Positions 37,724 to 61,362 of a stretch of DNA of 64,000 nucleotides are shown here, piece after piece. The position numbers were made by a program, and so were the translations under genes. The stretch's first letter is position 1; each line of letters opens with the position of its first letter. The notes beneath the pieces were generated by a model that was not told the DNA's origin, did not search any database, and saw nothing but the letters and a program-made list of their open reading frames with translations. Source of the stretch: Hyphomicrobiales bacterium (GTDB lineage Bacteria > Pseudomonadota > Alphaproteobacteria > Rhizobiales > MH13); assembly GCA_017642935.1 (NCBI GenBank), contig JAEPOK010000001.1, positions 682,001 through 746,000 of the forward strand, written 5' to 3'.

Positions 37724-37820
37724 ATACGCACCACTGTATTGTCTCCACCAATACTATCGGCAGACAACAACGTGATCGTGCAATTGGGACATGTCCTTAT
37801 CTCGTAACAGCGCACTTACA

Positions 37821-37934: not shown

Positions 37935-37975
37935 ACCCCTCAGGCCACCAAGCCGCTGGCGTGGTCATAAATCTC

Positions 37976-39127: not shown

Positions 39128-39189
39128 GTCGTTCGTCACGATCCTTTCCTGAAGCGTCCAACCACCAATGACACGGATTGGGAGAACCT

Positions 39190-39306
39190 GACCCCAGCCA
39201 GCCACCGGTCAAGGGAGCTTCCGCACCAGACCGAGAACCCCCTGGCCCAGTGTCTTGAAGGCTGGGGTCGGCCCTTTCCCAACCGGTCACACAGGGTGGC
39301 CGGTCA
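39190..39306. repeat. Inverted repeat and CCGGTCA copies upstream of the ardA region
   Basis: GACCCCAGCC (39190-39199) is matched by GGCTGGGGTC (39260-39269). CCGGTCA occurs three times, at 39205, 39283 and 39300. This 200-bp gap between the relaxase and the small gene probably holds the control region of the antirestriction operon. Confidence 0.5.
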
Positions 39307-39328
39307 AACCAAAGGAAAGGATCAAACC

Positions 39329-39538
39329 ATGACGAACAAACAAACCAACTCAAAGACTCCGACGCACGAAGTCTTCCACGTGATCGGTGACGGCGACAAA
39401 GCCCGCTGGACGAAGATCGGGGTCGGCTGGGCTCATCAAGACCAGGACGGCCTAAACATGGTGATCAATTACACCCCGCTGGTGGCTGGACGTACTGTGG
39501 TCCGCAAGGTCAAGCCGAAGCAGGAGGCCGCCGCATGA
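39329..39538 (+). CDS. Small mobile-element protein next to ardA
   Basis: The 69-residue protein (HEVFHVIGDGDKARWTKIGVGWAHQDQDGLNMVINYTPL) matches a small family that I know only as companions of ardA in integrative and plasmid elements. It is a hydrophilic cytosolic protein without a recognised domain. The ATG at 39329 was preferred over one 11 codons upstream. It overlaps the ardA start by four bases (ATGA). Confidence 0.75.
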   Translation: MTNKQTNSKTPTHEVFHVIGDGDKARWTKIGVGWAHQDQDGLNMVINYTPLVAGRTVVRKVKPKQEAAA

Positions 39539-40046
39539 GCCAGTCTCCGCAAACCAACTGGGCGAAGTCCGTGTACTTCGCTCAGCCTTACAGCCTTGAT
39601 GCCATCGGGTTCTACTTCACCTCGCCGGAGGAATATCGAAACTGTGTCGATGACAATCGCAATGCCTTAGGCAGGCCCATTGAAGAGTACGAACTGCAAT
39701 ACATCGATGGCGAACGGCAGGCTTTTTTCAGTGCATTGCGGATCAATCAAGCCAACTTGGGCGACTGGTTTGATCTACTCGACGCTCTTGGTAATGACCA
39801 AGATCGCTATTTGGTGGCCTGCCATCTGGCTGAATACGGCTATGAAATGGATCAGCTCGCGGACCACTGGGATGACCATTACGTGTATCGTGGCAGCATC
39901 GCTGACTATGCCGAAGACCTCATCCGAGACTGCGAGGACTTGCCGGATCGCATCACCGCTTCATCGATTATAAGCGATTGGGGCGTGACCTCACACACGA
40001 AGGTTGGGTTTATGAGGTCGAGCCAGAGTTGCTGATTGTAGGTTGA
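39535..40046 (+). pseudogene. ardA: ArdA antirestriction gene with a frameshift
   Basis: ArdA is a DNA-mimicking acidic protein that blocks type I restriction enzymes. The first 140 residues fit (VYFAQPYSLDAIGFYFTSPEEY, IADYAEDLIRDCEDLPDRIT). The frame then leaves the family and would stop at 40035. Reading from the -1 frame near 39958 restores the expected C-terminus, RFIDYKRLGRDLTHEGWVYE, ending at 40046. This is a one-base loss, a sequencing error, or programmed shifting. If the element is read as it stands, the protein lacks its last segment. Confidence 0.75.
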
Positions 40047-40164
40047 ACAATTTGCTGCCTGGCCAACGAAAACCCAGAAAATTGGGGATATTGACCAAGT
40101 TCGCGACAATGTCTCAGGTGGCCACTTCCAGCTTGGTAGATCGCGGCAACAGGCCGGTTGAGCA

Positions 40165-41046
40165 TTATCGGCATGCCGGTAGCGGAATCTGAATTGGTTC
40201 TGGATTCCCGACAAAGGTTAGCGGCCTTGCGCTAACCTGGACGTGGCGATCGCTGCGCGATATCCGATCCCCATTCAAAGATGCAGAAAACGCGCAGCCA
40301 GCATTCTCTGCCGCCGCAAAGAGCACTTGCCTGCTAATATTGTTCTGATCATCGTCGGAACAATCGACCAAAGTCACAGAAGCATCGGTGACAAATCGAT
40401 TGCCAGTCTTAGCAATGACTTCTGCAGATAGCTCGGCAACGTGACTGTTAATGGTTCCAAACGCGCGACCAGGGCAAAGGCCCATCTGATCCGTTCTTGC
40501 CATGCGCTGTGACTGATGGCCGGCTCTGGGAACTGTGAAATGTAGCCGCGTGATGTCATCCTGATGTTCTGCGGCTAGACCGCCGAAGAAAGCACTTTCC
40601 AGACCTGACATGATGTCTGCGTTCGGCTCTTGCCCATTGACCTGCGCGGTGACCTCCGGTCTGGGGAGGTAGCTCTCTATGGGATCATCTTCGGTTCGGT
40701 CCGACCGTTCTAAGCGATCTCTTTCGAGAAAATAGCGGTTAATCTGTTCAACATTGCGCTCCACGCACTCTCGAGAGTCACGGGTGAACTCACCCTTTAA
40801 TTCTTGGTCGAGTCTATCGAGGATCGAGGGATACTCCTCCCTACGAATGGTGAAATCCCCTGCTACGCCTCGGCGCAGCAGTCGAATGCCCGCATCCCCT
40901 TCTGATGATATCTCTACACCCATGCCCAAAAGGCAGAGGCGTAAAGACTGCGTCATCATATCTTCATACGTCGGCTGGCTTTGTGCAGCAGCATGCCCGA
41001 CACTGAACAATATTAATGAGACGGCTAAAAATATAACTCGATTCAT
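40165..41046 (-). CDS. Hypothetical secreted protein
   Basis: I do not recognise this 293-residue protein. It has a signal peptide (MNRVIFLAVSLILFSVGHAAA-QSQ) and seven cysteines or so, with repeated charged stretches such as RLDQELKGEFTRDSRECVERN. The GAGAGG ribosome site supports the ATG at 41046. It would be periplasmic or secreted. No homologous fold is visible and no neighbour points to a function. Confidence 0.75.
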   Translation of the reverse strand: MNRVIFLAVSLILFSVGHAAAQSQPTYEDMMTQSLRLCLLGMGVEISSEGDAGIRLLRRGVAGDFTIRREEYPSILDRLDQELKGEFTRDSRECVERNVEQINRYFLERDRLERSDRTEDDPIESYLPRPEVTAQVNGQEPNADIMSGLESAFFGGLAAEHQDDITRLHFTVPRAGHQSQRMARTDQMGLCPGRAFGTINSHVAELSAEVIAKTGNRFVTDASVTLVDCSDDDQNNISRQVLFAAAENAGCAFSASLNGDRISRSDRHVQVSARPLTFVGNPEPIQIPLPACR

Positions 41047-41117
41047 CTTTGCCTCTCTCCGCTTGGATTTCATTACTTCCAAGTAAGAGCTGGCATTTTT
41101 ATTACAAGAAAGGCCTG

Positions 41118-41549
41118 CTACCTTTCCCGCTCTTCCAACACTCGCCGTTTCAAAAAACAAGCCATCCGTTCCCGCAATGTCGGCGTCACATCCGGTTGAA
41201 TGCTGCGCCAATAGGCTTGGCGATCTTTTTCTCGCAGATAGTCCATTCGACGTTGGATGATGCGTTCTTCATAATAGCCGCGCACTTGAGCTGACTGGTT
41301 CTTGACCAGTTTCAGAGCCTCGCGTTCGGCCCGGCTTGGCCACCATTTGACCGTTGCTCGGTCAAAGAGCTCGCGTTCATAGGTCGCCATCTGTCCTAAG
41401 CGACTGTCGTCGAGTGATTTTTCTTTTGGGAAGTTGGGTTCAGCATGAGACAGCGAAGAAGACCGCTTATTAAGCGTGTCGATCGCTTGTACATACCAAG
41501 GACGCGCAGGCCGTGGTTCCAGTATCGGATCGTCGTCTGCCTCAGCCAT
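41118..41549 (-). CDS. Hypothetical basic protein
   Basis: This 143-residue product (start ATG 41549, MAEADDDPILEPRPARPWYVQAID) is hydrophilic and basic, with a helical region rich in Arg and Glu (ERELFDRATVKWWPSRAEREALKLVK) and no signal or membrane segment. It has no recognised domain. It follows the 36-residue membrane peptide gene and the integrase-like gene on the same strand, so the three may form one message. The start could be further upstream. Confidence 0.55.
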   Translation of the reverse strand: MAEADDDPILEPRPARPWYVQAIDTLNKRSSSLSHAEPNFPKEKSLDDSRLGQMATYERELFDRATVKWWPSRAEREALKLVKNQSAQVRGYYEERIIQRRMDYLREKDRQAYWRSIQPDVTPTLRERMACFLKRRVLEERER

Positions 41550-41614
41550 CACTGTATCCCCGAGAGCTTGCAGCCGGCTAGCTAAGCACATCGGATATCC
41601 GATGTTCGTCGACG

Positions 41615-41725
41615 CTAAAGCGGCAGTGTGAGTAATCGCCAAATCAAAATTGCAGCAACCGCGAGCACAGTCCAGCTCAGTATTTCTCTTAGTAAGGGCC
41701 ACAATAATCGAAAGAGGGTTTGCAT
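41615..41725 (-). CDS. 36-residue single-pass membrane peptide
   Basis: A short frame with the strong ribosome site GGAGG eight bases before its ATG (41725) encodes MQTLFRLLWPLLREILSW followed by TVLAVAAILIWRLLTLPL, almost entirely hydrophobic, one membrane pass. It begins 12 bp after the integrase-domain gene stop. The start signal and hydrophobicity support it as real, but its role is unknown. Confidence 0.7.
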   Translation of the reverse strand: MQTLFRLLWPLLREILSWTVLAVAAILIWRLLTLPL

Positions 41726-41737
41726 CGTCAATCCCTC

Positions 41738-42595
41738 CTATTCGCCGAGATAAACGCGAGTGATGCTCAGCCGTGCATGGCCGAGCTCCGCCGAGATCAG
41801 CCGACGCGCGGCGATTGCTTGCGCCTGCTCAGCCGGTGATAGGTCAACATGCCGCTTGCCGCCCGCCAGTGAGCAAGGCTGCCCCACCAGTTCGAGATAA
41901 CGGGTTTGGGCATAGCGGTGGCGCAGGCCATGCACATTCTTGATCTCGTGCTTGGCCAGCTGTGTTTCAAACACCTTGCGCCAGCCGATGTAGGACTTGT
42001 CCGCCGGAATGAGCGAGCCGTTGCCCACAAGTATGGAAACCTGATCTAGCAACGTGCGCTGTGCCGCTGTGCGGATCGGAATAAAGCGACCGCGCCCGCC
42101 CTTGGTCCAAGACGGTTTGAGGGCCAGGACCGTGCCTTTATCGGCGACACGCACGCGCAGCTTCAAAGCTTCCTCGAACCGCAGACCGAACAACTCCATC
42201 AAGTTGAGTGAAGCCTGCATCCGAGGGTTGCGCAGTGTTGTTGTTTTGACGGTGGTTTGAGCTCGGTTTGTTCGAGCACCTTCACGTAAAGGTAGCCCCA
42301 ATTCGGCATTGGTCCTTGGCATGACCGATGCCTTGTTGACCTTGGCGGCCCACCAGCGCAGCCAACCTAGGCGGTTCTTGATGGTACCGTTGCTCAGGCC
42401 GTTGGTCTGCCAAGTGCTGACGAGTTTTTGAATATGTTTGGGCTTGAGGGAGTTGGCCCTGGGCAGTTTGAACCCCAGCCCATGGAGTTCATTGGCAATC
42501 GCAACCAAGCCGCGCCGCCGATTGGCTTGGGTGGCCAATGCCCCGTCGCGATTGTGCTTGGTCAAGCGCACCAGAGCCAGTGCTAGGTTGTTCAT
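41738..42595 (-). CDS. Integrase-domain tyrosine recombinase
   Basis: The 285-residue protein has the N-terminal SAM-like core-binding domain (KHIQKLVSTWQTNGLSNGTIKNRLGWLRWW) and a catalytic domain with Arg in FGLRFEEALKL, HGLRHRYAQTRY, and the nucleophile Tyr in SITRVYLGE. It fits the Integrase_1-type family found on mobile elements. It is one of four tyrosine recombinases in this island. I prefer the ATG at 42595 (MNNLALALV), though a GTG five codons earlier is possible. Confidence 0.87.
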   Translation of the reverse strand: MNNLALALVRLTKHNRDGALATQANRRRGLVAIANELHGLGFKLPRANSLKPKHIQKLVSTWQTNGLSNGTIKNRLGWLRWWAAKVNKASVMPRTNAELGLPLREGARTNRAQTTVKTTTLRNPRMQASLNLMELFGLRFEEALKLRVRVADKGTVLALKPSWTKGGRGRFIPIRTAAQRTLLDQVSILVGNGSLIPADKSYIGWRKVFETQLAKHEIKNVHGLRHRYAQTRYLELVGQPCSLAGGKRHVDLSPAEQAQAIAARRLISAELGHARLSITRVYLGE

Positions 42596-42739
42596 GGCTC
42601 TGGCTTTCACGTTGTTATTTGATTGTTGCTAAGTGTTATTGGTCACCGCCAGGCCTTAGCTCTGGTCGGTTCGCCGCAAGCGGCGATATTGACCGCATTG
42701 GTGCATCGGTGACGGTCGTCATCGATGACCAGCGCGCAC

Positions 42740-42762
42740 AAAAAAAGCCCCGTGTTGGGGCT
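42740..42762 (-). terminator. Intrinsic terminator of the orphan unit
   Basis: On the minus strand the stem AGCCCC/GGGGCT with a five-base loop is followed by seven T (42740-42746), and an outer pair CGCGCAC/GTGCGCG extends the structure to 42733-42770. Confidence 0.85.
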
Positions 42763-42893
42763 GGTGCGCGGTCATGATGCCCAGATGGGCGGTCGCGGAG
42801 CCAATGGCGTCACGCGTCAGGTCAGTGGGTCAGATTAAGGTGGCATTTGAGTCTCCTTTTGATTGAGGACAGTTAAGCGGTTTTCGTTACCCG

Positions 42894-42929
42894 CTATGGA
42901 AATGCGTTCACGGTCACCTGGTACGGCAT
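42894..42929 (-). CDS. Mini-frame MPYQVTVNAFP
   Basis: AAAAGGAG six bases before an ATG gives an 11-residue frame (MPYQVTVNAFP) on the minus strand. A second AAAGGAG before ATG at 42844-42846 gives MPP only. Both lie inside the orphan unit and may be leader or regulatory frames. Translation is not shown. Confidence 0.3.
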   Translation of the reverse strand: MPYQVTVNAFP

Positions 42930-43120
42930 CACGTGCTCCTTTTCGGTCAAATTGTGGGAAAGATGACGTGCGCTAGCTTTCTGGCACGTTACTGAAATCA
43001 TGGCACAAAACGCGGAAAAATGCAATCAAAAGTTGCATATTTGCGGCGTCTGTTGCTGGCATTTGCCGGGCATTTACCGTCAGCCATCAAATATCGTCGG
43101 AATGCGTTGCTGACGTTGAA

Positions 43121-43152
43121 GGTAGTGACGGGGCCGGTGCCCCGTCACTACC
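43121..43152. repeat. Perfect 14-bp hairpin
   Basis: GGTAGTGACGGGGC and GCCCCGTCACTACC are separated by CGGT. It lies 76 bp past the end of the XerD-like recombinase gene. There is no T-run on either side, so it is a structured end or protein-binding site rather than a classic terminator. Confidence 0.75.
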
Positions 43153-43227
43153 CAAATCGCGCAAGCAACATTGTTTGTCAGATGAATTGAGCGGTGCGCT
43201 GATCGCGCCCATTGTCCCATTCTTAGC

Positions 43228-43830
43228 TCACAGCCGCGTCCACATCCGTTCGGCCATCAGCCGTTCCTCCGGCCCAATCGCGTCCAGATAGATGGCGGTG
43301 GTCGACAGGGCGGCATGGCCTAGCCAGCGTTGCACCAGTGTCAGCGGTACACCTGACCGGATCGCATGAACGCCAAACCCATGACGCAGCCCACGCGGAC
43401 ACGCTTGAATGCCAGATATCTCCGCCGCTGCCATCACCTGCTTGACGTGTCGCCATGCATGACCCCGATGCCACGGCCACAGATAGGGGCATTCTGACGA
43501 TGGCTGCCGCTGGTCCAGCTTGTGCGATGCCACCAACAAATCAATCAGCATGGTTGGAATCGGCACCTCCCGGATCACCAGCCGCTCGCGCTTCTTGAGT
43601 GACCGGATGGCCACGACGCCCTCGCGCGATTGGATGGCAGCTGGTGACAGGTTCAGGGCTTCGGTGATGCGGCAACCGGTAAAGAGCAACGTCTCGCAGA
43701 GGGTGCGCACGGGTGGGCTCGCTTGGCGGGCCGCGACCAGAAAACGCTGCCGTTCATCCGCGTTGAGATACTTGCGGGCCGCGTTCGGCGCATACAGGGC
43801 CTGATACGCGGGAAATACGTGCTGCGTCAT
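43228..43830 (-). CDS. XerD-like tyrosine recombinase
   Basis: The 200-residue protein contains only the catalytic domain of a tyrosine recombinase: Arg in FTGCRITEALNL, RGLRHGFGVHA, the histidine in WLGHAALSTT, and the nucleophile Tyr in TTAIYLDA. It lacks the N-terminal core-binding domain, as in short plasmid-resolution or switch recombinases. Its start lies 55 bp from a 22-bp inverted repeat that looks like its target. Recombinases of this shape can invert DNA. Confidence 0.87.
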   Translation of the reverse strand: MTQHVFPAYQALYAPNAARKYLNADERQRFLVAARQASPPVRTLCETLLFTGCRITEALNLSPAAIQSREGVVAIRSLKKRERLVIREVPIPTMLIDLLVASHKLDQRQPSSECPYLWPWHRGHAWRHVKQVMAAAEISGIQACPRGLRHGFGVHAIRSGVPLTLVQRWLGHAALSTTAIYLDAIGPEERLMAERMWTRL

Positions 43831-48642: not shown

Positions 48643-50007
48643 TTAGACGCCTAGCAGCTCGCCCAGACGGTCAGTCACTGGACGCATGGGATCAACAAAT
48701 CCCAGGTCGTAAATCATGGTGGTGGCAAGGTTTCCGCGATGATCGACGTAGTGCGAGACATCCTCGCGACGGACCCCCTGGCCAACCAGCATCAGCGAAA
48801 TCGCAATACGTTTAAGGTCATACAATTGGAAGTGCTCTGGCACCCCGTCCAGCTGTTTGAATTTGGCCAACTGCCGCTTGAAATTGTCACGCGGTTGCGT
48901 GGCATCGGTTTGCGAAGGAAACACGAAACGTGAGCCGGGATAGAGCTGTCGTTGCGCTCTGACGATGTCCGCGACCCGTCGATGGATGGGGATAGAGCGA
49001 AAGGCATACTCATAAGGTTGCCGAGAGAGCTTGATGCCTTTGGTGTTGTGCTTGTGCCAAATCAGCCGCTCTAGGTCGAAGTGGCTGAATTCGGCTTCGC
49101 GTAGCTCTTTGGGCCGGGCCATCGTCAGAAACAGAATGCCCATGAAGTGGCAAAGCTCCTGCATCTGTTTCTGGCTCACCAGTTCGCGGCCATGTGCCAA
49201 GGCTGTGAGGCGTTTCTCGGTGCCAGTGCCAATGACAGCGGGGAGCGGGTCGAATTGGGGCTGGAAGATATGCCGCGCGATGGCTTGGATTTCAGTGGAG
49301 CTGTAGTCCCGTCGCTGCCTGATGCTTTTGCGTAAGCTCAGCGGGTCGCACGGGTTGCGCATGTCGACCAACTGCATGCGGATGGCCCAATTGAAGAGGG
49401 ACTTGGCCGACGAATAAGCTCGGTTGTGTGTCGCTGCTCCAGTAAACTGGGAGAGGTAACTACTGATATCGGCGGGTTTGATTTTGGTTGCAACATAGTC
49501 TCCAAGAACGGAGTCGAGGTCGCGGTAGCTTGCATGGCGGCAAGCTTTGCGAGCCGACACCCTTGAGCGACGCAGTCGACGGCACAACAGCGATGCCATG
49601 CTATAGCGGTGAGATTCGGACCAGCCGCCACTATTCGCTACCCAAAACTGGTCGATGATGCGGCTTAAAGTCAGTGGCTTGTCATCTGAGTACCCCAGAG
49701 ATTTGAGGTCGGGATTCTCGCCGTTCGTCAACTGCGCCTTCCGCTGGCTCACCAGCAAGCGGGCGGACGCGACATTCATGTTGGCCGGGTCACCGAGTTT
49801 GATGCGACGACGTTTGCCGCCCCATTCAAACGAATGAACAAAGCATTTGTGGCCTTGTACGGTTACCCGCAGTCCCAAACCCGGGATAGCTCCGCCTCGA
49901 ACTTTGCCGTCCAGTGAGAGTGGGCTGTCCCAAAACAGTTCTTGATCTTTGCCCGCTGGGCAAATCGCGCTTCCTACAAAAGTATCGTTCAAATATAATT
50001 TAGGCAC
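48643..50007 (-). CDS. Second tyrosine integrase (DUF4102-type)
   Basis: The protein of about 454 residues has the N-terminal arm-binding domain of the DUF4102 kind (PGLGLRVTVQGHKCFVHSF, KRRRIKLGDPANMNVASAR) and a catalytic domain with Arg in TMARPKELREAEF, YDLKRIAISLML in the HxxR position, and the nucleophile Tyr in TTMIYDLG. I chose GTG at 50007 since AAAGGAG lies upstream and MPKLYLNDTFVGSA fits family starts; an ATG 11 codons earlier is possible. A tRNA-Ala fragment with flanking repeats lies just upstream, as expected for its attachment region. Confidence 0.88.
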   Translation of the reverse strand: MPKLYLNDTFVGSAICPAGKDQELFWDSPLSLDGKVRGGAIPGLGLRVTVQGHKCFVHSFEWGGKRRRIKLGDPANMNVASARLLVSQRKAQLTNGENPDLKSLGYSDDKPLTLSRIIDQFWVANSGGWSESHRYSMASLLCRRLRRSRVSARKACRHASYRDLDSVLGDYVATKIKPADISSYLSQFTGAATHNRAYSSAKSLFNWAIRMQLVDMRNPCDPLSLRKSIRQRRDYSSTEIQAIARHIFQPQFDPLPAVIGTGTEKRLTALAHGRELVSQKQMQELCHFMGILFLTMARPKELREAEFSHFDLERLIWHKHNTKGIKLSRQPYEYAFRSIPIHRRVADIVRAQRQLYPGSRFVFPSQTDATQPRDNFKRQLAKFKQLDGVPEHFQLYDLKRIAISLMLVGQGVRREDVSHYVDHRGNLATTMIYDLGFVDPMRPVTDRLGELLGV

Positions 50008-50009
50008 TT

Positions 50010-50260
50010 CATGTAAATCTCCTTTAAAGAAAATATACATTTATTGCAGTAATTGCGCAACTTAAAAATGTACTTAGTGCGAACTATTCGCAATGAATTC
50101 AGTATGTTACCGTGGTCAGCCTGGTTTAAAATCTGTTCCACGATGCGATTTGCACGCAGGAGGTCATCGGTTCGACTCCGTTCAGGTCCACCATTTAAAA
50201 CAATAACCTATGATAGAAACACATCACCTCATCGCTTTCATGTAAATCTCATGTAAATCC
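50010..50260. repeat. Direct repeats flanking the tRNA-Ala fragment
   Basis: CATGTAAATCTC occurs at 50010-50021 and 50239-50250, and CATGTAAATCC at 50250-50260. They bracket the tRNA-Ala 3' fragment at 50149-50193 and lie beside the integrase start. This is the layout of arm-type integrase binding sites around a core crossover. Confidence 0.65.
50149..50193 (+). other. tRNA-Ala(TGC) 3' fragment, remnant attachment core
   Basis: The 45 bases (TTTGCACGCAGGAGGTCATC and following, ending in TCCACCA) match the 3' part of a tRNA-Ala(TGC) gene from the anticodon loop. The 5' half is missing and the T-stem has a mismatch, so it is not a working tRNA. It is best read as the core of an attachment site for the second integrase. 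Confidence 0.75.
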
Positions 50261-50576: not shown

Positions 50577-53500
50577 ATGAGATGTTATCGTCGGTTTGTG
50601 AGTTATGTTTCCCGTAGAATTCGGGTCAGCGATGATGCTGACAACTGGCGTGAAATTTCCGACATCGAGTTTGCTGCGCTCGACGGCCCCCTTATACTGG
50701 TTGGCGAGCCGGGCTCAGGCAAGTCGGATACTGCGAGCGCGATATGTACATTGCGGCAAGGCGTCCTTCTTGAAGCCTATCGTGTGGCGTCCAGTGTTCC
50801 GCTCCCTCAGTTAGCCACAGGTTCTTATACCGTTATCGATGGCTTTGATGAAGTGCCTGCGAGCTCGGCTCATCAACCCATCGAGTTGGCACTGGAACGA
50901 CTTCATTCTCAAGGCATAGAGGCTTTTGTCATTACTTGCCGAGCGGCAGATTTGGCCGCAGTTCAAAAAGAGCGGGCGATTGTGGCTTGGACAGGCAGGA
51001 AGCCCGTCATTGGCCATCTTCAACCTCTCAATGACAACGAAGTTGCGTCAGTGGTTGAAGGTTTGGGGACGTTTTCTTCTTCTGGCGATGAGTTTGTAAA
51101 AGAGGCACATAACCGCCACGCCATTGAGCTGGCGCGCAACCCCCAATCGCTGCGCTTGTTGATCGCGGCGATCGGTGCTGACGGCTGGCCAAGCACGAGA
51201 ACCGAGATTTATGAGCGCGCTTGCGTGGACTTCGTTCAAGAGCGCAACAGGTATCATCGCTCACAATCGCCGACCGTGCCTGATAGCCAGGAGTTGCTTA
51301 GCATTGCCGGTTTTGTGTGTGCTCAATTACTACTCGGCGGTGTGAGGGGAATAGACCTCGACAACCAGAACAGTGACGACCAATTTCTGCCTACCGCTAC
51401 CTTTGCCGGTGGTTCTTTCTCAATTGAAAGCATTAGGTCAGCCGCATCTACGCTGCTGTTTCGTTCGGTGGGAAACGACAAAGTCGAGCCCATGCACCGC
51501 ACAGTGGCTGAGTATCTCGCTGCACGCTGGCTGGTGTCAGCACAACAAGCCGGGAGTCTTTCCTACAGACGCCTGGAATCGGCCATCTATGTTGAAGGAA
51601 CCGTACCAACTTCCCTACGAGGTCTACATGCTTGGATGGCGACGCTGCACCGATCTCGCACAAACAAACTCTCAAGCCATGACCCCTATGGTTGCCTGCG
51701 CTACGGTGACGTTAGTCAGTTCTCGGATGTACAGATCAGGGTCCTGATTGAGCAACTCCAGGATTTGGCCGCCATTGATCCTTACTTCCGAGGTGAGGAT
51801 TGGGATGCGCCAGTGGCGGCCGGGCTTGTACGACATGCTGTTCGGGATGAAGTCGTCCAATTGATCAGTTCACCCGACGTCCCATTCGGATTGTCATCGG
51901 TAGTGCTTCAGTCTCTTAAGGGCGTGGCACTCGCAGCTTCAGTTCGCGAAGACCTCAGACGAGTCGTACTCAACGATGCGATGGTCTTTTCAGTGCGGTC
52001 CAGAGCACTTGAAGCGTTAGAGGAAAGCGGAGAACCGGAAGACTGGGTGGCCCTATCAAGCAGCTTGTCTTCCAACGATACGCTCGATTCCGCACGGTTG
52101 GCTGTGGAAATCATTATCCGCCATCCAGATGATTTCTCCGGTGACAAGGTTGCAGAAGTTGTTCTGAACAATGACCGCCTAAATGCGCGTGAGGATGGGC
52201 GTACGATATTAGGAATAGACTTTCGATTGTGGCCAGTTCTGCGTGTTGACCAGCTACAGACGGCCATACAAGCGATCTCAGCGGAATTGCCATCCGACCC
52301 ACACAGCCGCACCGACTATCAGCAACGCGTCGAAGACCGTGTTCAAGCCGCTGTTATAGTTCTGCTCTCGAAAAGCAGTGAGCCAACAGCTTCCCAGTTT
52401 TGGGGGTGGGTATGTAACACGAGCCGCTTTGGCTATCAGGCAAAGAAGTTCGACGAGTTCTCAATCGAGTACTTCAGCGAAAGGCCTGAATTGCGGCGGG
52501 CGATCCAAGAGTTGGTTTTGGTCAACGCTGGTGAAGACGGCACTCGCGCTGCATTGTTTCGACTTCGCGATGTAGCCTCGGGACTGACGCCCAACGAAGA
52601 TGACGTTGTCTACCACATGGCGAAGCTGTGTTCGAGGAATTCAGATTCTGAGAACTTGATAGAACAATGGCGAGAGTTGGCTCATTGGGCGGCAGGCTCG
52701 TCAGGTTTCGCTGGCGATTCCTGGATGCGTGCTCGCGAACTCGCCACCCTGCGGCCCGAGTTGAACGCCGTCTTAGATGAAATTGAAAATCGTCCACGGC
52801 CAGCCTGGGAAATCGAAGAAGAAAAACGTCAACGCGTTGAGGAAGCAAAACAGCGTCGGCGGGATGAGCTTCGTCGGAAGAAATTCGCAGACGTCGCAGA
52901 TTCTGTTCGTGATGGAAGCCACCTGCACAATTTGCATCAAATCGCGCAGGCTTACCTTGGCCTCTTTGGCGAAGTACGCGAGATTGAAGACCCAGCGGAG
53001 CGTGTTGCCTGGTTGGTCGGTGATACGAACCTACAAATGGCACGCGATGGACTACTGGCGGCCTGTCAACGCGAGGACTTACCAAGCCCGCGTGAAATGG
53101 CTGAGCTCTCGGTCCAAGAACAGAAAACTTACTTCCTGGAACGGATTATCCTTGCCGCGTGCGCTGCCCATCAAGCGAGCGGTCATGCTCTAGAAGACCT
53201 CCCGCCTTCTGCCTTGTGGTGTGCTTTAGCGGCTTGCAGTTGGGGGCTGTATTCTCATGACGACAAGGCAATTGAAGCACTGCAGGAGCAGCTCGAGGAC
53301 CTCCTGCTTCAAGATGATCAGGAGACAGAGCAGTTCCTTCGCGATTCAATCGAGCCCGCGCTCTTTGCCTCTGAGCAACATGTGTCAGGCTTGCATGAGT
53401 TGGCTAGTGATCAGCGTTTCACCAAGCATGCCGAGTCCTTGACATTGGAGTGGTTGGAAAACAGCGAGAGAGTATCGGACCAGCCACTCAAACAGCTACT

Positions 53501-54596
53501 GGAAACCGCACTGTCAGTTTGTGACAAAACTGCACTTTCCGATCTTGTCGCAAGAAAGCTGGAAAACGACGATTTTCCGTCGGACGAGCACAAACGTCGG
53601 TGGATGGCTGCAGCATTCGCGGTTGATTTTGAGCGTTTTCGATCAGATTTGGAATCGTTCGCACAGCAAGACCAGGCAACACTTCATGCGTTGCGGGACC
53701 TGAGCTGGGGAGCAAACAGTGGTGAACAGACGAAACTGAAGCGATCCGTCGGCCAACTCACCTTTGTCATTACCCACTATGCTGCAGCATATCAGATAAC
53801 TGAACTTCCTCGAGGCGGATGGGCGGGCACGCACCCTTATGAGCAAGCTCAGTATATCGCTGGCTGCATCAACGAACTGGGCTCACATCTGACCGATGCG
53901 GCTCACTCAGCTCTTGAGCAGATTGTCGATGGCGGCATGCTTGGGAACCACATCGACAATGCGCGCCATGTTTTGGCGGAACACACGCGTTCGCTGGCAG
54001 ATGCGGCTTGGCGTGCCAACACGCTTCAAAGCATACGCCCAGTACTCCTTGCTGGTCCACCACAGACCATTGACGACCTTCAAAGCCTCGTGATGTCGGA
54101 GCTCGTGTCAGCACAGGAGCGAGTTCGCGACGGTACGTTCAATAGTGTTCAGCCCTTCTGGAATGACAATCAACCACACGACGAGAACTATTGCCGTGAT
54201 CGCCTGGCCGAACACCTCGAACCCTACCTGCTCCCATACGGTGTCAGGGTGCATAGCGAGGGGACGATGCCTGACCGGCGACGCTGTGATCTCTTGTGCA
54301 CTATTGGCGAATTGGACCTTCCGATTGAAATCAAAGGTCAGTGGCATCCCAATCTTTGGAATGCTGCCTGTGAGCAGTTGGAGGACAATTACGCGCGCAA
54401 TTACCGAAGTGATGGGCGGGGAATTTATGCGGTGGTTTGGTTTGGCGATGTTGCTGGCAGGAACCCGCCTGGAATTCGAACGATCGGTAGGCCGAATTCA
54501 GCTGCTGATTTGATGACAATGTTGCAGAGTCAGTCGCCTCGACCTTTGAACGCCAAAACCCAACTGTTTGTACTCGACGTGTCTCAGCCTATTTGA
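50577..54596 (+). CDS. NACHT-type NTPase with C-terminal PD-(D/E)XK nuclease-like domain
   Basis: This 1339-residue protein has Walker A at residues 43-50 (VGEPGSGKS), Walker B YTVIDGFDEVP at 84-94, the sensor FVITCRA, and NPQSLRLL, the pattern of bacterial NACHT/STAND NTPases. A long helical-repeat middle follows, with a charged helix near residues 745-790. The C-terminus carries a nuclease-like motif, Glu1228, Asp1238 (RRRCDLLC), Glu1251 and Lys1253 (IEIKGQ), as in PD-(D/E)XK enzymes. Known bacterial NACHT and Avs proteins recognise phage and trigger an effector, so a phage-defence role is inferred. In most of them the effector is N-terminal. The start lacks a clear ribosome site. Confidence 0.82.
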   Translation: MRCYRRFVSYVSRRIRVSDDADNWREISDIEFAALDGPLILVGEPGSGKSDTASAICTLRQGVLLEAYRVASSVPLPQLATGSYTVIDGFDEVPASSAHQPIELALERLHSQGIEAFVITCRAADLAAVQKERAIVAWTGRKPVIGHLQPLNDNEVASVVEGLGTFSSSGDEFVKEAHNRHAIELARNPQSLRLLIAAIGADGWPSTRTEIYERACVDFVQERNRYHRSQSPTVPDSQELLSIAGFVCAQLLLGGVRGIDLDNQNSDDQFLPTATFAGGSFSIESIRSAASTLLFRSVGNDKVEPMHRTVAEYLAARWLVSAQQAGSLSYRRLESAIYVEGTVPTSLRGLHAWMATLHRSRTNKLSSHDPYGCLRYGDVSQFSDVQIRVLIEQLQDLAAIDPYFRGEDWDAPVAAGLVRHAVRDEVVQLISSPDVPFGLSSVVLQSLKGVALAASVREDLRRVVLNDAMVFSVRSRALEALEESGEPEDWVALSSSLSSNDTLDSARLAVEIIIRHPDDFSGDKVAEVVLNNDRLNAREDGRTILGIDFRLWPVLRVDQLQTAIQAISAELPSDPHSRTDYQQRVEDRVQAAVIVLLSKSSEPTASQFWGWVCNTSRFGYQAKKFDEFSIEYFSERPELRRAIQELVLVNAGEDGTRAALFRLRDVASGLTPNEDDVVYHMAKLCSRNSDSENLIEQWRELAHWAAGSSGFAGDSWMRARELATLRPELNAVLDEIENRPRPAWEIEEEKRQRVEEAKQRRRDELRRKKFADVADSVRDGSHLHNLHQIAQAYLGLFGEVREIEDPAERVAWLVGDTNLQMARDGLLAACQREDLPSPREMAELSVQEQKTYFLERIILAACAAHQASGHALEDLPPSALWCALAACSWGLYSHDDKAIEALQEQLEDLLLQDDQETEQFLRDSIEPALFASEQHVSGLHELASDQRFTKHAESLTLEWLENSERVSDQPLKQLLETALSVCDKTALSDLVARKLENDDFPSDEHKRRWMAAAFAVDFERFRSDLESFAQQDQATLHALRDLSWGANSGEQTKLKRSVGQLTFVITHYAAAYQITELPRGGWAGTHPYEQAQYIAGCINELGSHLTDAAHSALEQIVDGGMLGNHIDNARHVLAEHTRSLADAAWRANTLQSIRPVLLAGPPQTIDDLQSLVMSELVSAQERVRDGTFNSVQPFWNDNQPHDENYCRDRLAEHLEPYLLPYGVRVHSEGTMPDRRRCDLLCTIGELDLPIEIKGQWHPNLWNAACEQLEDNYARNYRSDGRGIYAVVWFGDVAGRNPPGIRTIGRPNSAADLMTMLQSQSPRPLNAKTQLFVLDVSQPI

Positions 54597-54843
54597 GAGC
54601 TTTAGCCAAACCGGTATTCGTAAAACTGAGCAAGAGGTTGCTAGATTCGCGTCAACAATTCCCACTATAGAAGGCTATTTGAATGACCAAGCGCAACCTC
54701 AAGTTAATTTGACCGAGGTTATATCCTCCAGGCTGTACGGGGTGTGCTTGCCCAAATTGAACTCATCGCTTTGGATACTTGAGAACGCCGTGCTAAAGAT
54801 GCACTGATAGTGTAGGCCTTGGCATCAATGCGGGTAAGTGAAA

Positions 54844-55575
54844 ATGGTAATGGCAAGTGAATTGGTAGCTCGCGAGGAGCGTGATTTAGCCTGGCATCGT
54901 CGCAAAGGACGTATCCGTGATGGAGAATTTCAAGGCCTCCCGGTGCTTCACTTCGACGACAATGAGCACTCTGGTTTTTTCTATAAATCTCGCACAAGGA
55001 AAACGGGGATTTGCCTTCATTACACTGAAGGCTATTTGGGGGGCGATATTTCGTATCTTACCCGCCACGATTATAAAGTGAGCGTACCATTCTTGATCGG
55101 GCAGAGCGGAAAAATCGTGCAGCTATTCGACCCTGACTATTGGTCATATCATTTGGGACGTGGCGCAATAGGCGGAAACACGCGTGGCTCAAAGGCATTG
55201 ATTGGCATTGAGTTGAACTCGGTTGGACACATTGAAAAATCTGGTGACTTGATGTTCACGTATTGGGGAAATGAGTACTGCCGCGCGACAGAAACAAATT
55301 ATTACACAAAATTACGTTCTGCCTATCGCGGGTATGAGTATTATGCTGCATTTACTGCCTTACAATACAAAAGCTTAAATGCTCTCCTGGATGCCTTATG
55401 CGATAAATACGATATTCCACGTCGATTCCTGAACCTTTCGACGCGGTTTGAGCCATTCGCAAGATCGGAAGAAGCAGCCAAATTTCGAGGTATCTCAAGC
55501 CACGTGAATTATCGTAGTACGGGGAAGCGAGATATCGGTCCAGCATTTGAATGGCACCGCATTGGTGCGAACTGA
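54844..55575 (+). CDS. N-acetylmuramoyl-L-alanine amidase-like protein without signal peptide
   Basis: The 243-residue protein has the amidase_2 (PGRP-like) layout. The first zinc histidine is in TGICLHYTEGY, then FLIGQSGKIVQLFDPDYWSYHLGRG and LIGIELNSVGH. The remaining ligands are in SSHVNYRSTGKRDIGPAF (His, then Asp). These enzymes cut the bond between N-acetylmuramate and L-alanine in peptidoglycan. It has no signal peptide, so it would need another route, or lysis, to reach the wall. Its stop overlaps the next gene's start (TGATG), so they are coupled. Confidence 0.85.
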   Translation: MVMASELVAREERDLAWHRRKGRIRDGEFQGLPVLHFDDNEHSGFFYKSRTRKTGICLHYTEGYLGGDISYLTRHDYKVSVPFLIGQSGKIVQLFDPDYWSYHLGRGAIGGNTRGSKALIGIELNSVGHIEKSGDLMFTYWGNEYCRATETNYYTKLRSAYRGYEYYAAFTALQYKSLNALLDALCDKYDIPRRFLNLSTRFEPFARSEEAAKFRGISSHVNYRSTGKRDIGPAFEWHRIGAN

Positions 55576-56237
55576 TGGCACCACCGAACTTTGATTGGGA
55601 GCAAGATGGCTTGCGGAAGCATGACTTTATATCGTTTAACAAAGCGATTTTGCTAAACCTAATTAATCGGATAAATCGAGAGACTGCGCAACAAACCAAC
55701 AAACCAGTTATTGAAATCACTCTTGAAGACGTCTGTGCTATCTTCAATGCAGAAGCTGGACTGACGCCTGGTGGTTATGTTGATACAACCCATATTCACT
55801 CTCTGGGCGAGCACGGGGTCCTTCCGCTACCAAAGAACATTGATTTCTGGGTTGATAGTGCTCCAAGCTGGCACCAGCCTATGTCTGTGGATACCAATCT
55901 CTATTATTTTTTTTCGTACTGCGCATCGATCAAGAACAAAGCGTTCAAGGTGATCGAGTTTTTGCATCTATATAGAGCTCTGTTTGAACAAGAGTTCTCG
56001 AAAAATGACCGGAGAATGCAAGCTTTAATTTTAGCCGGCGTGATCCATGGGTATTTCGAAGTAGGCACTTACCGATCCAAAACCGTACCGCTTGGGTATC
56101 TGCTGGATAATTACCGTTCTGGCACCAGATTGGCCCAGATGATGGGCAACACTGACTATGATCGAGCAGGTGCTGCGATTCTTGCTAACCGCGAAAGAAA
56201 CCTTCTGGTCGGTATGGGCTGGGCAACTGAACCTTAG
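55575..56237 (+). CDS. Unknown protein coupled to the amidase
   Basis: The 220-residue protein starts at the ATG overlapping the amidase stop. It begins hydrophilic, and the middle reads CAIFNAEAGLTPGGYVDTTHIHSLGEHGVLPLP, with a Glu/His-rich pattern that could hint at a lysozyme-like or transglycosylase-like catalytic region. No signal peptide is present. I cannot assign a family. Strict coupling with the amidase gene suggests joint action on the cell wall. Confidence 0.6.
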   Translation: MAPPNFDWEQDGLRKHDFISFNKAILLNLINRINRETAQQTNKPVIEITLEDVCAIFNAEAGLTPGGYVDTTHIHSLGEHGVLPLPKNIDFWVDSAPSWHQPMSVDTNLYYFFSYCASIKNKAFKVIEFLHLYRALFEQEFSKNDRRMQALILAGVIHGYFEVGTYRSKTVPLGYLLDNYRSGTRLAQMMGNTDYDRAGAAILANRERNLLVGMGWATEP

Positions 56238-56274: not shown

Positions 56275-57033
56275 CTACAGGCTGCGAAAAGCGTCTGTTA
56301 AGCGTTCAGTTGGTCGGTATGATATGTCGGCCTGGTAATCATAGTTTCTCTGGTCGTTTAAAAACACGGTGTAGATCCGAATATCCAATAGGACTGGTAG
56401 GTTTTGACCCTGCCAATCTTCGGTCGACGCCCCAACGATTTCGACATTTACCGATCCGCCCCGCCGTCCCGGAACTGGAACCGAAATGGTCGCTCCGGAG
56501 GACAGAGCATTGCGATACCCTACCAGGGTCGAATCTGCCGTGATCGCACCGGCTACCAATACAAGTCTAAACGGTGAGTTTTCTTCTGCTGCTGCATCAA
56601 GGAACCAGCGAGTCCCAAGATCTACACCGCGCGCCTCTCGCCGGTTGATTGCTGAACTTAGTGCGTCGTGTGTGTCGGTAATGGTTTCTCTGCGTCCATT
56701 GTTCAACTCGATGAACGCTTGACCAGCGACCTCCAACTCTACCTGAGCTTGAACAGCGGCGGACAGGCTGCCTTCCACTGTGATCCCACGAATACTACTG
56801 GCGCGAATTCGGTCAAACGAGTTATCGTTAACAACGAACCGCTGAAATTCAGGTCCCAAATTCGCAAGGATACTCAAAGAGTCATCGCGTGTGTCCAACA
56901 GATACAGATCGCCCACACCCAACAGGCCGGTGTTTAAAAAACCTCGGTCAGTTTTGACGTGCGAAAGGTTGATGCTCGCAGATTGGCAGCCAAGCATAGT
57001 GAGGCAAAGAAAAACTACCACAAAGCGCATCAT
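56275..57033 (-). CDS. Hypothetical lipoprotein convergent to the amidase pair
   Basis: This 252-residue protein has a lipoprotein signal peptide with lipobox MLGC-QSA. The mature part is polar and beta-rich (GVGDLYLLDTRDDSLSILANLG). It would be anchored in the periplasm. GGAG precedes the ATG at 57033. It is convergent to the amidase-partner gene, with only 38 bp between the stop codons. A function is not recognised; an immunity or surface role is possible. Confidence 0.7.
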   Translation of the reverse strand: MMRFVVVFLCLTMLGCQSASINLSHVKTDRGFLNTGLLGVGDLYLLDTRDDSLSILANLGPEFQRFVVNDNSFDRIRASSIRGITVEGSLSAAVQAQVELEVAGQAFIELNNGRRETITDTHDALSSAINRREARGVDLGTRWFLDAAAEENSPFRLVLVAGAITADSTLVGYRNALSSGATISVPVPGRRGGSVNVEIVGASTEDWQGQNLPVLLDIRIYTVFLNDQRNYDYQADISYRPTERLTDAFRSL

Positions 57034-57361
57034 GAATTTCTCCATCATCCGTCAATACGTCTGAGTTGATGATTGCATGAAGGTTGTCTGTTTTAAATTG
57101 TCAATTTTGAAAAATTTCGTTGCTCCATCGGATATCACGAAAGTCTTAGTGACTCGCCAGGCATTGCTGAGCACTCACTCTCGTTGCTACGCCCAAATCT
57201 GGTTTGCTGATAACCCTATTGTCCGTGAGACTGGCTCATAGCGCGTGGAATTGAGCAATCAGAAGCGTAGAAACGACCACAAAGCTTTGCACAAAAACTT
57301 GCACAACAATGCTATACATTGCCAAAAAACAAATAAAAACAATATTTTGCACTAAGATATC

Positions 57362-57786: not shown

Positions 57787-60700
57787 TCAGGCAACCCGGC
57801 GTGGGTTGCTACGCTCTCCAGCGAGGAGCGCGGCATTGCCGCCAGCGGCCGTCGTATCGACGCAAAGATGGCGCTCCAGACAGGCATGCGCCTTATCCGG
57901 ATGCCCCGTGATGAGCGGGATGATCGGTCCTTGGCGTTGGGAAAGCGCTTCTGCGTAAGCACGCGCGGCAGTCTCTTCTCCCCACCAGATCAACCCGCCA
58001 AAGGGCGGCAGATCATGCAAATCCATCGGGTCAAGCACGCCATTGATGCAAACGGCTTGGCCTCCAAGTGCCACTGTGGCAGCACATTGCAGGGCAACAG
58101 CCTCGGGGCCGGGGCCTGCACACATGAGCGGGGCTCGGGGCAGGGTGGTCAACCTGTTGAGCTCGCCTGTTGGTCCTGGAAGGATTTGCGTTTGACTGAG
58201 GACCGACCGGGTATCCAATGCACGCAATGCCTTTTTGAGAGCGCCAATGTCCGTCGGTGTCGCCCAGTCCGCCGAAATTTGCGGGGCGGGTGAGGCGGTG
58301 AAACGGGTCAGATAATGTGGTCCACCGGCCTTCGGCCCGGTCCCCGATAGACCTTCGCCGCCAAAAGGCTGGCTGCCGACGATTGCGCCAATCTGATTGC
58401 GATTGGCGTAGATGTTGCCGGCATCAACTGCGTCGGCGATGGTCTGCACACGGTCGTCGATCCTTGTGTGCAGGCCGAAGGTCAAACCATAGCCGGTCGC
58501 GTTGATGGCCGCGATGACACGGTCAATCTCATCGGCCTTGAAGGTCGCGACATGGAGGACAGGTCCAAAGACCTCCTCTTCCAAGTCGTCAATGCCGGAC
58601 ACGCTGATGAGGGCCGGCCCGACGAAAGACCCCAAATTAGGTGCCTCACGTCGATGGATCAGCCGACCGTCACGCGCAGCGGCGTCGATATAGGCGTTGA
58701 TCCTAACTGCGGCCGTCTCTGAGATAATGGGCCCGATATCGGTTGCGATGTCCCACGGGTTACCAAGAACCAGTTCGTCCATTGCCCCAGCTAGGCGCTC
58801 CAGGAAGGGCGCGGCGATATCCTCTTGAAGATAGAGGCAGCGCAGCGCCGAACAGCGCTGACCGGCCGACTGGAACGCGGAGACGATGATGTCGCGAACG
58901 GCCTGTTCGGGCAGGGCCGTGCTGTCGACAATCATCGCATTGAGCCCGCCGGTTTCGGCAATTAGGGGCGTGCCCGGCGCGCAGCCGGTGGCCATGGCCG
59001 ACTGGATGCGGCGCGCCGTTGCCGTTGAGCCGGTGAAGGCCACGCCGCCCACCCGCGGGTCGGAGGTCAAGGCGGTACCGATCTGGCTTCCCGTTCCTGG
59101 CAGGAACTGAAGGGCCGCGTGCGGCACACCCGCCTGATGAAGCTTTTGGACGGCCCAGGCGGCAATTGCGGGCGTCGTTTCGGCGGGCTTGGCAAGCACG
59201 GCGTTGCCCGCAGCCAGTGCCGCTGCGACCTGGCCACTGAAGATCGCAAGCGGGAAATTCCAGGGGCTGATGCAGGTGAAGACACCCCGGGCCGGCGTTT
59301 CGAGCGTCTCGGCCTCACGCGCATAGTAGCGCAGAAAATCCACCGCCTCGCGAAGTTCTGCGACAGCATCACCAAGTGTCTTGCCCGCTTCTGCCGCGAG
59401 CAACGCAAAAGCCTCTCCGAATTCTGCCTCAAACATATCCGCGGCGCGGCGCAGCACAGTGGCGCGGTCGGAGGGTGGGGCTGTCCAAGGGCTTGCGGCT
59501 GACAGAGCGGTTGCCACATCGTCGGCGGATGCTAACTCTGTTGAGCCAATGATTTCACCGGAGCTTGGGTCGGCAATGGCTTCAGATATGCCGCCGATGG
59601 GTGTCCCAGCGATGATCGGGCCGACCGTTAGGCCGGCCGGGCGCTGACGCGCTGCATCGATACGGGAGAGTTCGTTGACATCACTTAGATCGAAACCGGC
59701 TGCATTGCGGCGATCAGGTGCGAACAGCTCCGGCCCTGTCGTGACAGTGGACCCGCCTGAGGACATATCTGTCGCCAACTGCTCAAAAGGACAGGCCGCC
59801 ACGACTGATGCAGGAACGGATTTATCGACGATCTGGTTGACGAAGGAGGAGTTGGCGCCGTTTTCGAGCAGGCGCCGCACCAGGTAAGCGAGGAGATCAC
59901 GATGGGCGCCGACTGGCGCGTAGATCCGGCATCGCGTTCCCTTGTCGGCAAGGACAAGATCATGCAGCGCCTCGCCCATGCCATGCAGCCGCTGAAATTC
60001 GAACGCTTCGCGCGGCAGGTCTTCGGCCATCTCCAAAACCGCGGCCACGGAATGGGCGTTGTGTGTCGCGAATTGCGGGTAGATGCGGTCGGTCAACCGC
60101 AAGAGCTTTTGCGCCAGTCCGATATAGCTGACATCGCTCGCAGCCTTTCGCGTAAAGACTGGAAAGCCGTCCAGGCCCTGAACCTGCGCATGTTTGATTT
60201 CCATGTCCCAGTAGGCGCCTTTGACCAGCCGAACCATGATCCGCCGGTCATGCGTTTCAGCCATCCGGTGGAGTTCGTCGATTACGCCGCCGGCGCGCTG
60301 CCCGTAGGCCTGAACGACCACACCGAAGCCGCTCCACCCGGCAAGCCTCGGATCCGCAAGCGTGGCCTCTACGACCTTTAACGATAGAGCCAGGCGGTTG
60401 GCCTCTTCGGCATCGATGTTAAGCCCCATTCCGGCGTCGGCAGCCTGCCGTGCTAGCCCGGTCAATACCGGCACCAGTTCAGTCATCACGCGGTCGGTTT
60501 GTGCCACCTCGTAGCGCGGATGAAGGGCGGACAGTTTGACCGAAATTCCTGGGTTGATCGTGATGTCCGGGCCTTTGCATGCGGCGCTGATGTGAGCGAT
60601 GGCATCGCGGTAGGCGCGGGCATAGCGTTGCGCGTCGGCGGCCGTGATCGCTCCTTCGCCCAGCATGTCGTAGGAATAGGTGTAACCGTTTGCCTCCATT

Positions 60701-61245
60701 CCGCGTGCACGCTGCATTGCAGCGCCTATGTCTTCGCCAAGGACAAATTGCCGACCCATCTGTTTGATGGCAGCAGCAACGGCGGTACGGATGACCGGTT
60801 CGCCGAGGCGGCGCACCATGGAGCGCAGCGTCCCGGCCACGCCCGGTTCTGCGTCATCCAACACACGCCCTGTCAGCAACAGCCCCCATGTCGAAGCGTT
60901 GACAAGCGGTGAGCTGGACTGACCCAGATGGTCAGACCAGTTGGATGGCGCGATCTTGTCCTCAATCAGCGCGTCGATTGTCTTGGGATCCGGCACACGC
61001 AGAAGTGCCTCGGCAAGACACATTAGGGCGACGCCTTCGCTGGTGGATAGGCCGTACTCGGCCAGAAAGGTTTCCATGAGGCCGGGTCTGGATGCCTCGC
61101 GGATTTGCTCCACCAAGGACGTAGCTCTTGTGACGATTGCGGCCCGCGAGCCCGGTTCCAGCTGCGCAGTTCGTTCAAGGTCGCCAAGAACGTCGGCTTC
61201 GCTACGCCGCTTGTTCTCGTCCCAGGCTTGGTTGATGTCGATCAT
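57787..61245 (-). CDS. putA: Bifunctional proline dehydrogenase / P5C dehydrogenase
   Basis: PutA oxidises proline to glutamate in two steps. The 1152-residue protein has the FAD-dependent proline dehydrogenase barrel (about residues 100-470, ending with [33 protein letters not shown]) and an aldehyde dehydrogenase domain (from about 540), with catalytic Cys in [14 protein letters not shown] and Glu in [12 protein letters not shown]. The N-terminal ribbon-helix-helix DNA-binding domain of enteric PutA is absent, so control probably falls to the divergent Lrp-type regulator. I chose the ATG at 61245; a GTG four codons earlier is possible. Confidence 0.95.
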
Positions 61246-61362
61246 TGACACGCTCACTCAGGTTGCGCGCTTTCTACCATTTTACGAAGAGCCGTTTCGA
61301 CTGTAGGCTGACCAATGAAGGGCAAAAAGCCCAAAGTATGACTGAAAAGAAGACGATTCTTG

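Follow-up and report, generated by a model that had tools for sequence, protein, structure and literature searches.

The question raised by the gene at positions 50577-54596 of a 64,000-nucleotide stretch of a Hyphomicrobiales bacterium genome (GenBank assembly GCA_017642935.1, contig JAEPOK010000001.1, positions 682,001 to 746,000; the whole stretch is termed the window here) is what might be done by a protein that carries a NACHT ATPase motor near its N-terminus and what appears to be a nuclease at its opposite end. A preliminary description of the window had proposed that the long repeat region between the two senses a phage or other foreign component and activates the nuclease, and had pointed out that such an order is the reverse of that in most described bacterial NACHT and Avs proteins. 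Judged by its sequence, the protein is a divergent member of the EruA family, which has already been named, such that the system is not a new one. Very probably it acts as a single-gene, NLR-like antiphage protein, in which the solenoid would be the sensing part, the tail nuclease would cut DNA and infection would be aborted.

Family identity and conservation

The open reading frame (ORF) starts with ATG and encodes 1339 amino acids with zero internal stops, the same frame being open in the assembly. The NCBIfam equivalog model NF058535, named 'NACHT domain-containing antiphage protein EruA', matches the protein with a score of 1141.6 bits (cut-off 1000), with residues 13-1336 aligned to positions 1-1318 of the 1318 in the model. 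With this full-length match the family is settled and the locus becomes less novel; a reading of the gene as a novel orphan is thus rejected and, since the family already has a name, the reversed domain order discussed below is no discovery of this window. The curated name agrees with the defence role proposed in the preliminary description, and it is from this name that the putative antiphage role is drawn. The draft genome (3.74 Mb, 17 contigs) contains a single match to the family. A literature search in PubMed Central (PMC) found neither the antiphage EruA nor HyoA, a relative introduced below, nor the source paper of NF058535. In the accessible part of PMC12839154, EruA is a SlyA-family regulator, a different protein of the same name, while the accessible part of the DefensePredictor paper (PMC13092281) reports P-loop NTPase and PD-(D/E)XK systems, and 'Eru' is absent from its main text.

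The window protein was aligned within a set of 88 distinct full-length ORFs from 117 loci, itself included. Its identity to the remaining 87 copies is 19-28% (median 22%), and it stands as a lone long branch whose closest copy by identity, at 28%, is from Mesorhizobium. Twenty columns are invariant across the set: seven in residues 35-220, three in residues 221-480, none of the 659 in residues 481-1139 and ten in the last 200 residues. In other words, 10 of 446 columns are fixed in residues 35-480 compared with 10 of 200 in the tail. The search patterns had partly selected the columns of the P-loop and of GIYxxxW, but not the catalytic residues. As it appears from the alignment, the pattern is one in which motor and enzyme stay fixed and the middle between them changes freely and fast.

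The nucleotide-binding motor and the solenoid

The STAND NTPases of the NACHT and NLR type are characterised by Walker A and Walker B motifs and a winged-helix histidine, all of which are present in the window protein. The preliminary description had placed a NACHT core at residues 35-220, and it is there that Walker A (VGEPGSGKS, with K49) and Walker B (VIDGFDE, with D88, D91 and E92) are located. Residues G46, G48, K49, D88, E92, R122, H307 and E312 of the motor are found in all 88 copies, and D91 in 87. The AlphaFold model of residues 1-1100 (69 sequences; predicted local distance difference test, pLDDT, 88.0; predicted template modelling score, pTM, 0.72) has, by its matches to NLRP3 and NOD2, the predicted arrangement of nucleotide-binding domain, HD1, winged-helix domain and HD2, the last three names being what we presume for residues 221-480 from NLR structures. 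The NACHT of NLRP3 aligns with residues 3-428 of the model (Z 16.4, root-mean-square deviation, rmsd, 4.1 over 359 residues) and NOD2 with residues 3-481 (Z 16.2, rmsd 3.7 over 350 residues); overall, the matches to NLRP3, NLRC4 and NOD2 have Z 16.2-16.4 over 350-385 residues within 3-481. With Foldseek the same model matches NLRC4 at E 6.5e-8 and Avs4 (PDB 8dgf) at E 7e-6. In the Pfam comparison, 8 of the 18 members of A1 match NACHT (PF05729) at E 0.01, the best at 8.7e-7, the window protein not being one of the eight. A sequence search of the PDB with the window protein gave no relative, and family alignments gave only weak matches, mostly to P-loops.

The alpha-solenoid that follows is presumed from its sequence to be the sensor. 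Its model matches karyopherins with Z of about 10, mostly at large rmsd, and for the most part these matches appear to reflect no more than a common arrangement.

The C-terminal nuclease domain

A PD-(D/E)XK nuclease is defined by an acidic residue, an aspartate and a (D/E)-x-K motif carried on an alpha-beta-beta-beta-alpha-beta core. The candidate site that the preliminary description had seen at residues 1228-1253 is borne out by E1228, D1238 and E1251-x-K1253, each in 88 of 88 copies, and the same invariance holds for E1203, Q1267, L1268, G1282, W1288 and V1332. These identities are not due to chance, because they persist although the window protein is so distant from the rest of the set. 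A nuclease fold is also what structure prediction returns: the AlphaFold model of residues 1092-1339 (71 aligned sequences, pLDDT 90.5, pTM 0.81) has a helix at 1203-1221, strands at 1224-1227, 1239-1243 and 1246-1254, a helix at 1263-1269 and a strand at 1282-1288, and the invariant residues sit on this helix-strand-strand-strand-helix-strand core. In a second look by structural alignment, the neighbours were BamHI (Z 8.5, rmsd 4.0 over 145), OkrAI (8.2), Can2 (7.6), BglII (6.9), EndoMS (6.8), the McrBC chain 6hz4_N (6.4) and many additional restriction-type nucleases; the top Foldseek ranks were PspGI, a CRISPR-associated DNA nuclease activated by cyclic oligoadenylate and a McrBC chain. Residues, modelled core and nuclease neighbours accordingly agree with the definition given above, and the active site is complete and invariant; the domain would cut DNA. 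Taken together, sequence and models support a protein composed of a NACHT NTPase and a C-terminal nuclease domain with variable repeats between them.

Domain order

STAND proteins are described in the accessible part of PMC12169576 as having an N-terminal effector and a C-terminal sensor, and in that of PMC10907252 the effector is 'usually' N-terminal. The window protein does not have this layout of the Avs and tripartite bNACHT proteins: its P-loop begins at residue 43 with only seven more open codons before the ATG, its nuclease is C-terminal, and the reversal to which the preliminary description had drawn attention is real. Across the set, the nuclease lies at the end of the protein in all 88 copies, the distance between K1253 and the frame end being 82-186 residues. 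Since the start choices favoured about 33 residues before the P-loop, they are not evidence in this regard, and the argument uses the open frames instead. Ahead of the Walker A lysine, the frame stays open for at most 135 residues in 85 of the 88 copies (one of them cut by the contig start); the three longer frames are explained by overhang beside a separate partner gene (L064, L088) or by an in-frame fusion (L070), both considered below. The idea that a misplaced start conceals an N-terminal effector is therefore rejected, as the frames leave too little room for one.

On the aligned sequences, then, the reversed order is a trait of the EruA family. It probably extends further, to the whole EruA- and HyoA-related group. 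HyoA (NF058534), likewise a NACHT antiphage protein, is a distant relative of EruA with a model of 1430 positions, 112 more than that of EruA; five of seven genomes with weak EruA matches pass the HyoA cut-off, and in the genome of the window HyoA gave no match at E 0.001. Seven long distant proteins were inspected, and four of these have at their end an E-L-K motif followed by Q...Y, which is what makes a group-wide order probable (one of the other three is cut by the end of its locus).

A second ATPase in other clades

A gene with AAA_14 and DUF4143 domains abuts the NACHT-nuclease gene upstream, in one case fused to it, in 40 of the 83 copies with enough upstream sequence, five of the 88 (L014, L018, L047, L090, L107) being excluded because theirs is too short. 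By a position rule, a same-strand gene of this type lies directly upstream in 37 of 88 copies; three further cases comprise L064 and L088, missed by that rule, and L070, a Thermoanaerobaculia metagenome-assembled genome (MAG) in which the two genes form one in-frame reading frame of 1852 amino acids (L070:7522-13077), known from the MAG sequence alone. The partnered loci are L012, L013, L036, L038, L039, L044, L049-L057, L059-L061, L064, L065, L067, L070, L073, L075-L077, L082, L083, L087, L088, L093, L095-L098, L102-L105 and L110; the L056 copy is that of Thauera linaloolentis. Pfam confirms the AAA_14-DUF4143 domains in five tested partners and in 30-31 of the ORFs near the NACHT-nuclease genes. 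In the 30 pairs measured, the partner ends with a stop codon 2-84 bases (median 18.5) ahead of the conserved R13 codon, a distance so short that the two genes abut or overlap.

The partner is the more conserved of the two proteins: its median identity is 53% against 33% for the NACHT protein, and when 30 loci were compared pairwise its value was the higher one in all 435 pairs. Walker A and B residues are present in it, together with an E329...D357...E370-x-K372 signature (L049 numbering), these residues being found in 28-30 of 30 copies. On the trees, the partner label needs eight changes in a first scoring and five in a corrected one, against about 28 in shuffles, and the window copy falls, on its own long branch, within a fully supported partner-free set of 21 rows. 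The EruA name is silent on the need for a partner, since partnered copies can pass the cut-off (L049 at 1067.9 and L098 at 1046.1; L053, at 968.8, falls below it) and so can unpartnered ones.

Among the neighbouring ORFs, which were called mechanically such that near and far sets both contain false ORFs, PDC-S01, the PADLOC family corresponding to the DUF4143 partner, occurs in 31 of 139 near ORFs and is the sole PADLOC family enriched over ORFs five genes away (comparing the best 25 of 184 with the best 25 of 196 families). PF13635 is likewise found in 31 of the 139 near ORFs and is not among the best 25 of 97 Pfam families of the 105 far ORFs. Neither the partner proteins (E 1e-5) nor a profile of the partner (E 1e-3) gave a match in the window itself. 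The genome does encode a DUF4143 protein at another place (C2:338442-338924), but this is only about 25% identical to the partners and was rejected as a counterpart. A literature search found no paper combining DUF4143 with NACHT.

On a Paracoccus plasmid typed as conjugative (L130), a gene annotated as a CBASS phospholipase is found some 10-12 kb from the EruA-type gene, which itself adjoins a divergent DUF4143 gene; the weak downstream DUF4143 neighbour of this copy (43 bits) was not counted as a partner.

Distribution of relatives

In 398 sampled genomes of the phylum of the window, the EruA model matches in 67 at E ≤0.001, many of the matches being short, and 10 genomes, the window's own included, pass the cut-off. 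The occurrence of the protein is sporadic, as only the window genome was positive among 61 genomes sampled by kinship. A scan of genome contigs gave at least 78 loci in several phyla. A first scan of viral contigs found no relative and a scan with an alignment gave eight loci, while tblastn found relatives in 28 plasmid records, 17 of these typed as conjugative, and in one phage record. A Citrobacter copy, taken as a DNA query, has matches in 30 of 5426 complete Escherichia coli genomes, and in 24 of these the match spans 80% or more of the query. Two of the E. coli loci were read; each is a small island with an integrase, next to tRNA-Asn in one case and to tRNA-Thr in the other, and their copies pass the EruA cut-off at 1129.8 and 1203.9 bits. 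Occurrence on plasmids and in integrase islands, together with the sporadic distribution, is counted as spread on mobile DNA, in support of the antiphage reading.

Some copies are interrupted (L011, L033 and the E. coli hits H64 and H66), a Kordiimonas MAG copy by a stop codon; in H64 and H66 an IS3-family transposase gene is annotated within the matched stretch.

Proposed mechanism and alternative explanations

In the mechanism that we favour, the ADP-bound motor and the solenoid would keep the protein inactive at rest. Recognition by the solenoid of a phage-made protein, or of a host component altered by infection, would lead to exchange for ATP and to oligomerisation, after which the clustered C-terminal nucleases would cut the DNA of the phage, of the host or of both and thereby halt the infection, probably with the loss of the cell.

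Several points weigh against this account. The window copy is a lone branch, no copy in the set being closer to it than 28% identity, and its phage range, or even its activity, may differ from those of its relatives. The protein has no Pfam NACHT or nuclease match at E 1; PADLOC finds in it only mad8 (0.016), and in seven scanned window neighbours no defence gene, the best hit being LmuC (0.057). The PMC search found no experiment on the window protein or on the antiphage EruA. Moreover, none of the Foldseek matches of the tail to nucleases reaches E ≤0.001 (the best is 7e-3), and Z values of 6-8.5 lie in the middling range of the tool and could, taken alone, reflect a common arrangement. In combination with the invariant active site, however, these values are sufficient for the predicted nuclease fold to be taken as established.

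A different use of the same parts would make the PD-(D/E)XK domain the sensing or DNA-binding end, recognising for example DNA ends or modified DNA, with cutting a by-product or dependent on a partner, and with the NACHT motor acting as a McrBC-like loader. This alternative would accord with the C-terminal location of the STAND sensor in the accessible part of PMC12169576, with the presence of McrBC chains, EndoMS and Holliday-junction resolvases among the structural neighbours, and with the second ATPase gene, which has a nuclease-like signature of its own, beside 40 of 83 copies. We consider it unlikely, since a pure binding domain would have no need of a complete catalytic set that never varies among the 88 copies, and since the role of sensor falls more naturally to the variable solenoid. 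Slightly less probable still is that the same architecture is directed mainly at incoming plasmids or competing mobile elements, as an exclusion device of an integrase-bearing element: the window gene does lie beside an integrase with mobilisation genes about 11-15 kb away, more than half of the plasmid records with relatives are typed conjugative and transfer genes lie near the relatives in L130 and L131, but the curated name says antiphage and placement on mobile DNA, where phage-defence genes too usually sit, does not separate the two readings.

Returning to the favoured antiphage mechanism, a broader and more tentative proposal, to which we give somewhat less than even weight, is that EruA proteins are 'inverted' NLRs with an optional second ATPase, the clade of the window being a self-sufficient, partner-free version of a two-ATPase, two-nuclease complex. 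If so, the solenoid would stand between motor and effector, such that binding could be transmitted both ways, and oligomerisation would cluster the nucleases at the rim of the assembly rather than at its hub. The inverted layout and the optional ATPase are questions of the whole family and not of this window. The tail nuclease in every copy indicates that a NACHT motor needs no N-terminal effector; the EruA layout thereby lends itself to a clean test of the way in which oligomerisation acts on a nuclease at the far C-terminus, for which partner-bearing and partner-free clades provide a natural comparison.

Genomic surroundings

Table 1. Features of the EruA-family gene and its surroundings in the window
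Feature	Position	Strand	Basis
EruA-family NACHT-solenoid-nuclease gene	50577-54596	+	1339 amino acids plus stop; ORF and NF058535 match
NACHT nucleotide-binding domain, residues 35-220	50679-51236	+	Invariant residues; NLRP3 structural match
Walker A, residues 43-50 (K49)	50703-50726	+	G46, G48, K49 in 88/88
Walker B, residues 84-92 (D88, D91, E92)	50826-50852	+	D88, E92 in 88/88; D91 in 87/88
HD1/winged-helix/HD2 of NLR motor (presumed names), residues 221-480	51237-52016	+	H307, E312, W353 invariant; NOD2 match
Alpha-solenoid, presumed sensor, residues 481-1139	52017-53993	+	Helical model; variable sequence
C-terminal region, predicted PD-(D/E)XK nuclease fold, residues 1140-1339	53994-54593	+	Model and structural neighbours
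E1203, start of first helix of nuclease core	54183-54185	+	88/88
Nuclease active-site stretch, residues 1228-1253 (E1228, D1238, E1251-x-K1253)	54258-54335	+	Each 88/88
Q1267-L1268...Y1272 motif, residues 1267-1272	54375-54392	+	Q, L in 88/88; Y in 87/88
Tyrosine recombinase	48643-50040	-	Arm-DNA-bind_3 2e-8 (over cut-off); Phage_integrase 2.1e-5 (24.8 bits, cut-off 27.1)
VirD4/TraG coupling protein	35984-37723		
MobA/MobL	37820-39127		
Integrase-type gene	41738-42610		
Integrase-type gene	43228-43830		
Amidase_2 gene, right of NACHT gene	54838-55575		
ORF, no Pfam match over cut-off	55551-56237		
ORF, no Pfam match over cut-off	56275-57048		
putA	57787-61257		

The surroundings of the gene (Table 1) fit an integrated element. 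The tyrosine recombinase is present in the window genome and absent from four relatives of the same genus and family (G001-G004), and from 44 to 57 kb the G+C content falls to about 48-56%, compared with about 60% in most of the window. Of the mobile island that the preliminary description had proposed, the adjacent integrase, the drop in G+C and the mobilisation genes at 36-44 kb are thus in place, whereas the ends of the element and a pair of attachment (att) sites are not: a repeat search at the island gave no convincing att pair, and no empty site can be read because the contigs of the relatives (G003:C17, G001:C216) stop no more than about 1 kb past putA. Between the integrase and the NACHT gene, the stretch at 50149-50193 resembles the 3' end of a tRNA or tmRNA (TTTGCA ... 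GGTTCGACTCC ... CCA). Its sole match in the genome within three mismatches is itself, and covariance hits are far below threshold; it is possibly the scar of an attachment site. A 21-nucleotide direct repeat (90%) lies at 50008-50028, at the start of the integrase, and at 50237-50257, beyond the tRNA-like stretch.

Further to the left, the genes at 35984-43830 represent a mobilisable element or the remains of one. The integrase-type gene at 41738-42610 has no match in four relatives, a result of low weight as the search had no positive control. To the right, neither the Amidase_2 gene nor the ORF overlapping it (54838-56237 together) has relatives in the other loci compared.

Comparison with known systems

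With EruA the window protein shares a full-length match over the curated cut-off, from which its low identity to the other 87 copies and its want of a partner gene set it apart. It differs also from the two E. coli copies, behind which, at 12 bp, lies an LA2681-family HEPN gene (L122:24029-25633; L123:19034-20648, annotated in two pieces in the latter); the window has no LA2681-HEPN gene. Such a gene also stands directly behind the Citrobacter copy (L046:12976-14577), these three being the only cases among 124 sequences, many of them short.

Through its motor, an EruA-type protein is a bacterial relative of animal innate-immune sensors. Among bacterial proteins, the motor resembles that of Avs4, in which we take a STAND motor and a long repeat region to be joined to an N-terminal nuclease; unlike Avs4, the window protein has only some 40 residues before its P-loop. 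The proteins bNACHT25 and bNACHT32, of clade 6 of the bacterial NACHT proteins, combine, as the window protein does, a NACHT module with a PD-(D/E)XK domain, in their case a DNase. In the accessible part of PMC12169576 that DNase is N-terminal and its nuclease residue is needed for defence, whereas in the window protein the corresponding domain is at the C-terminus.

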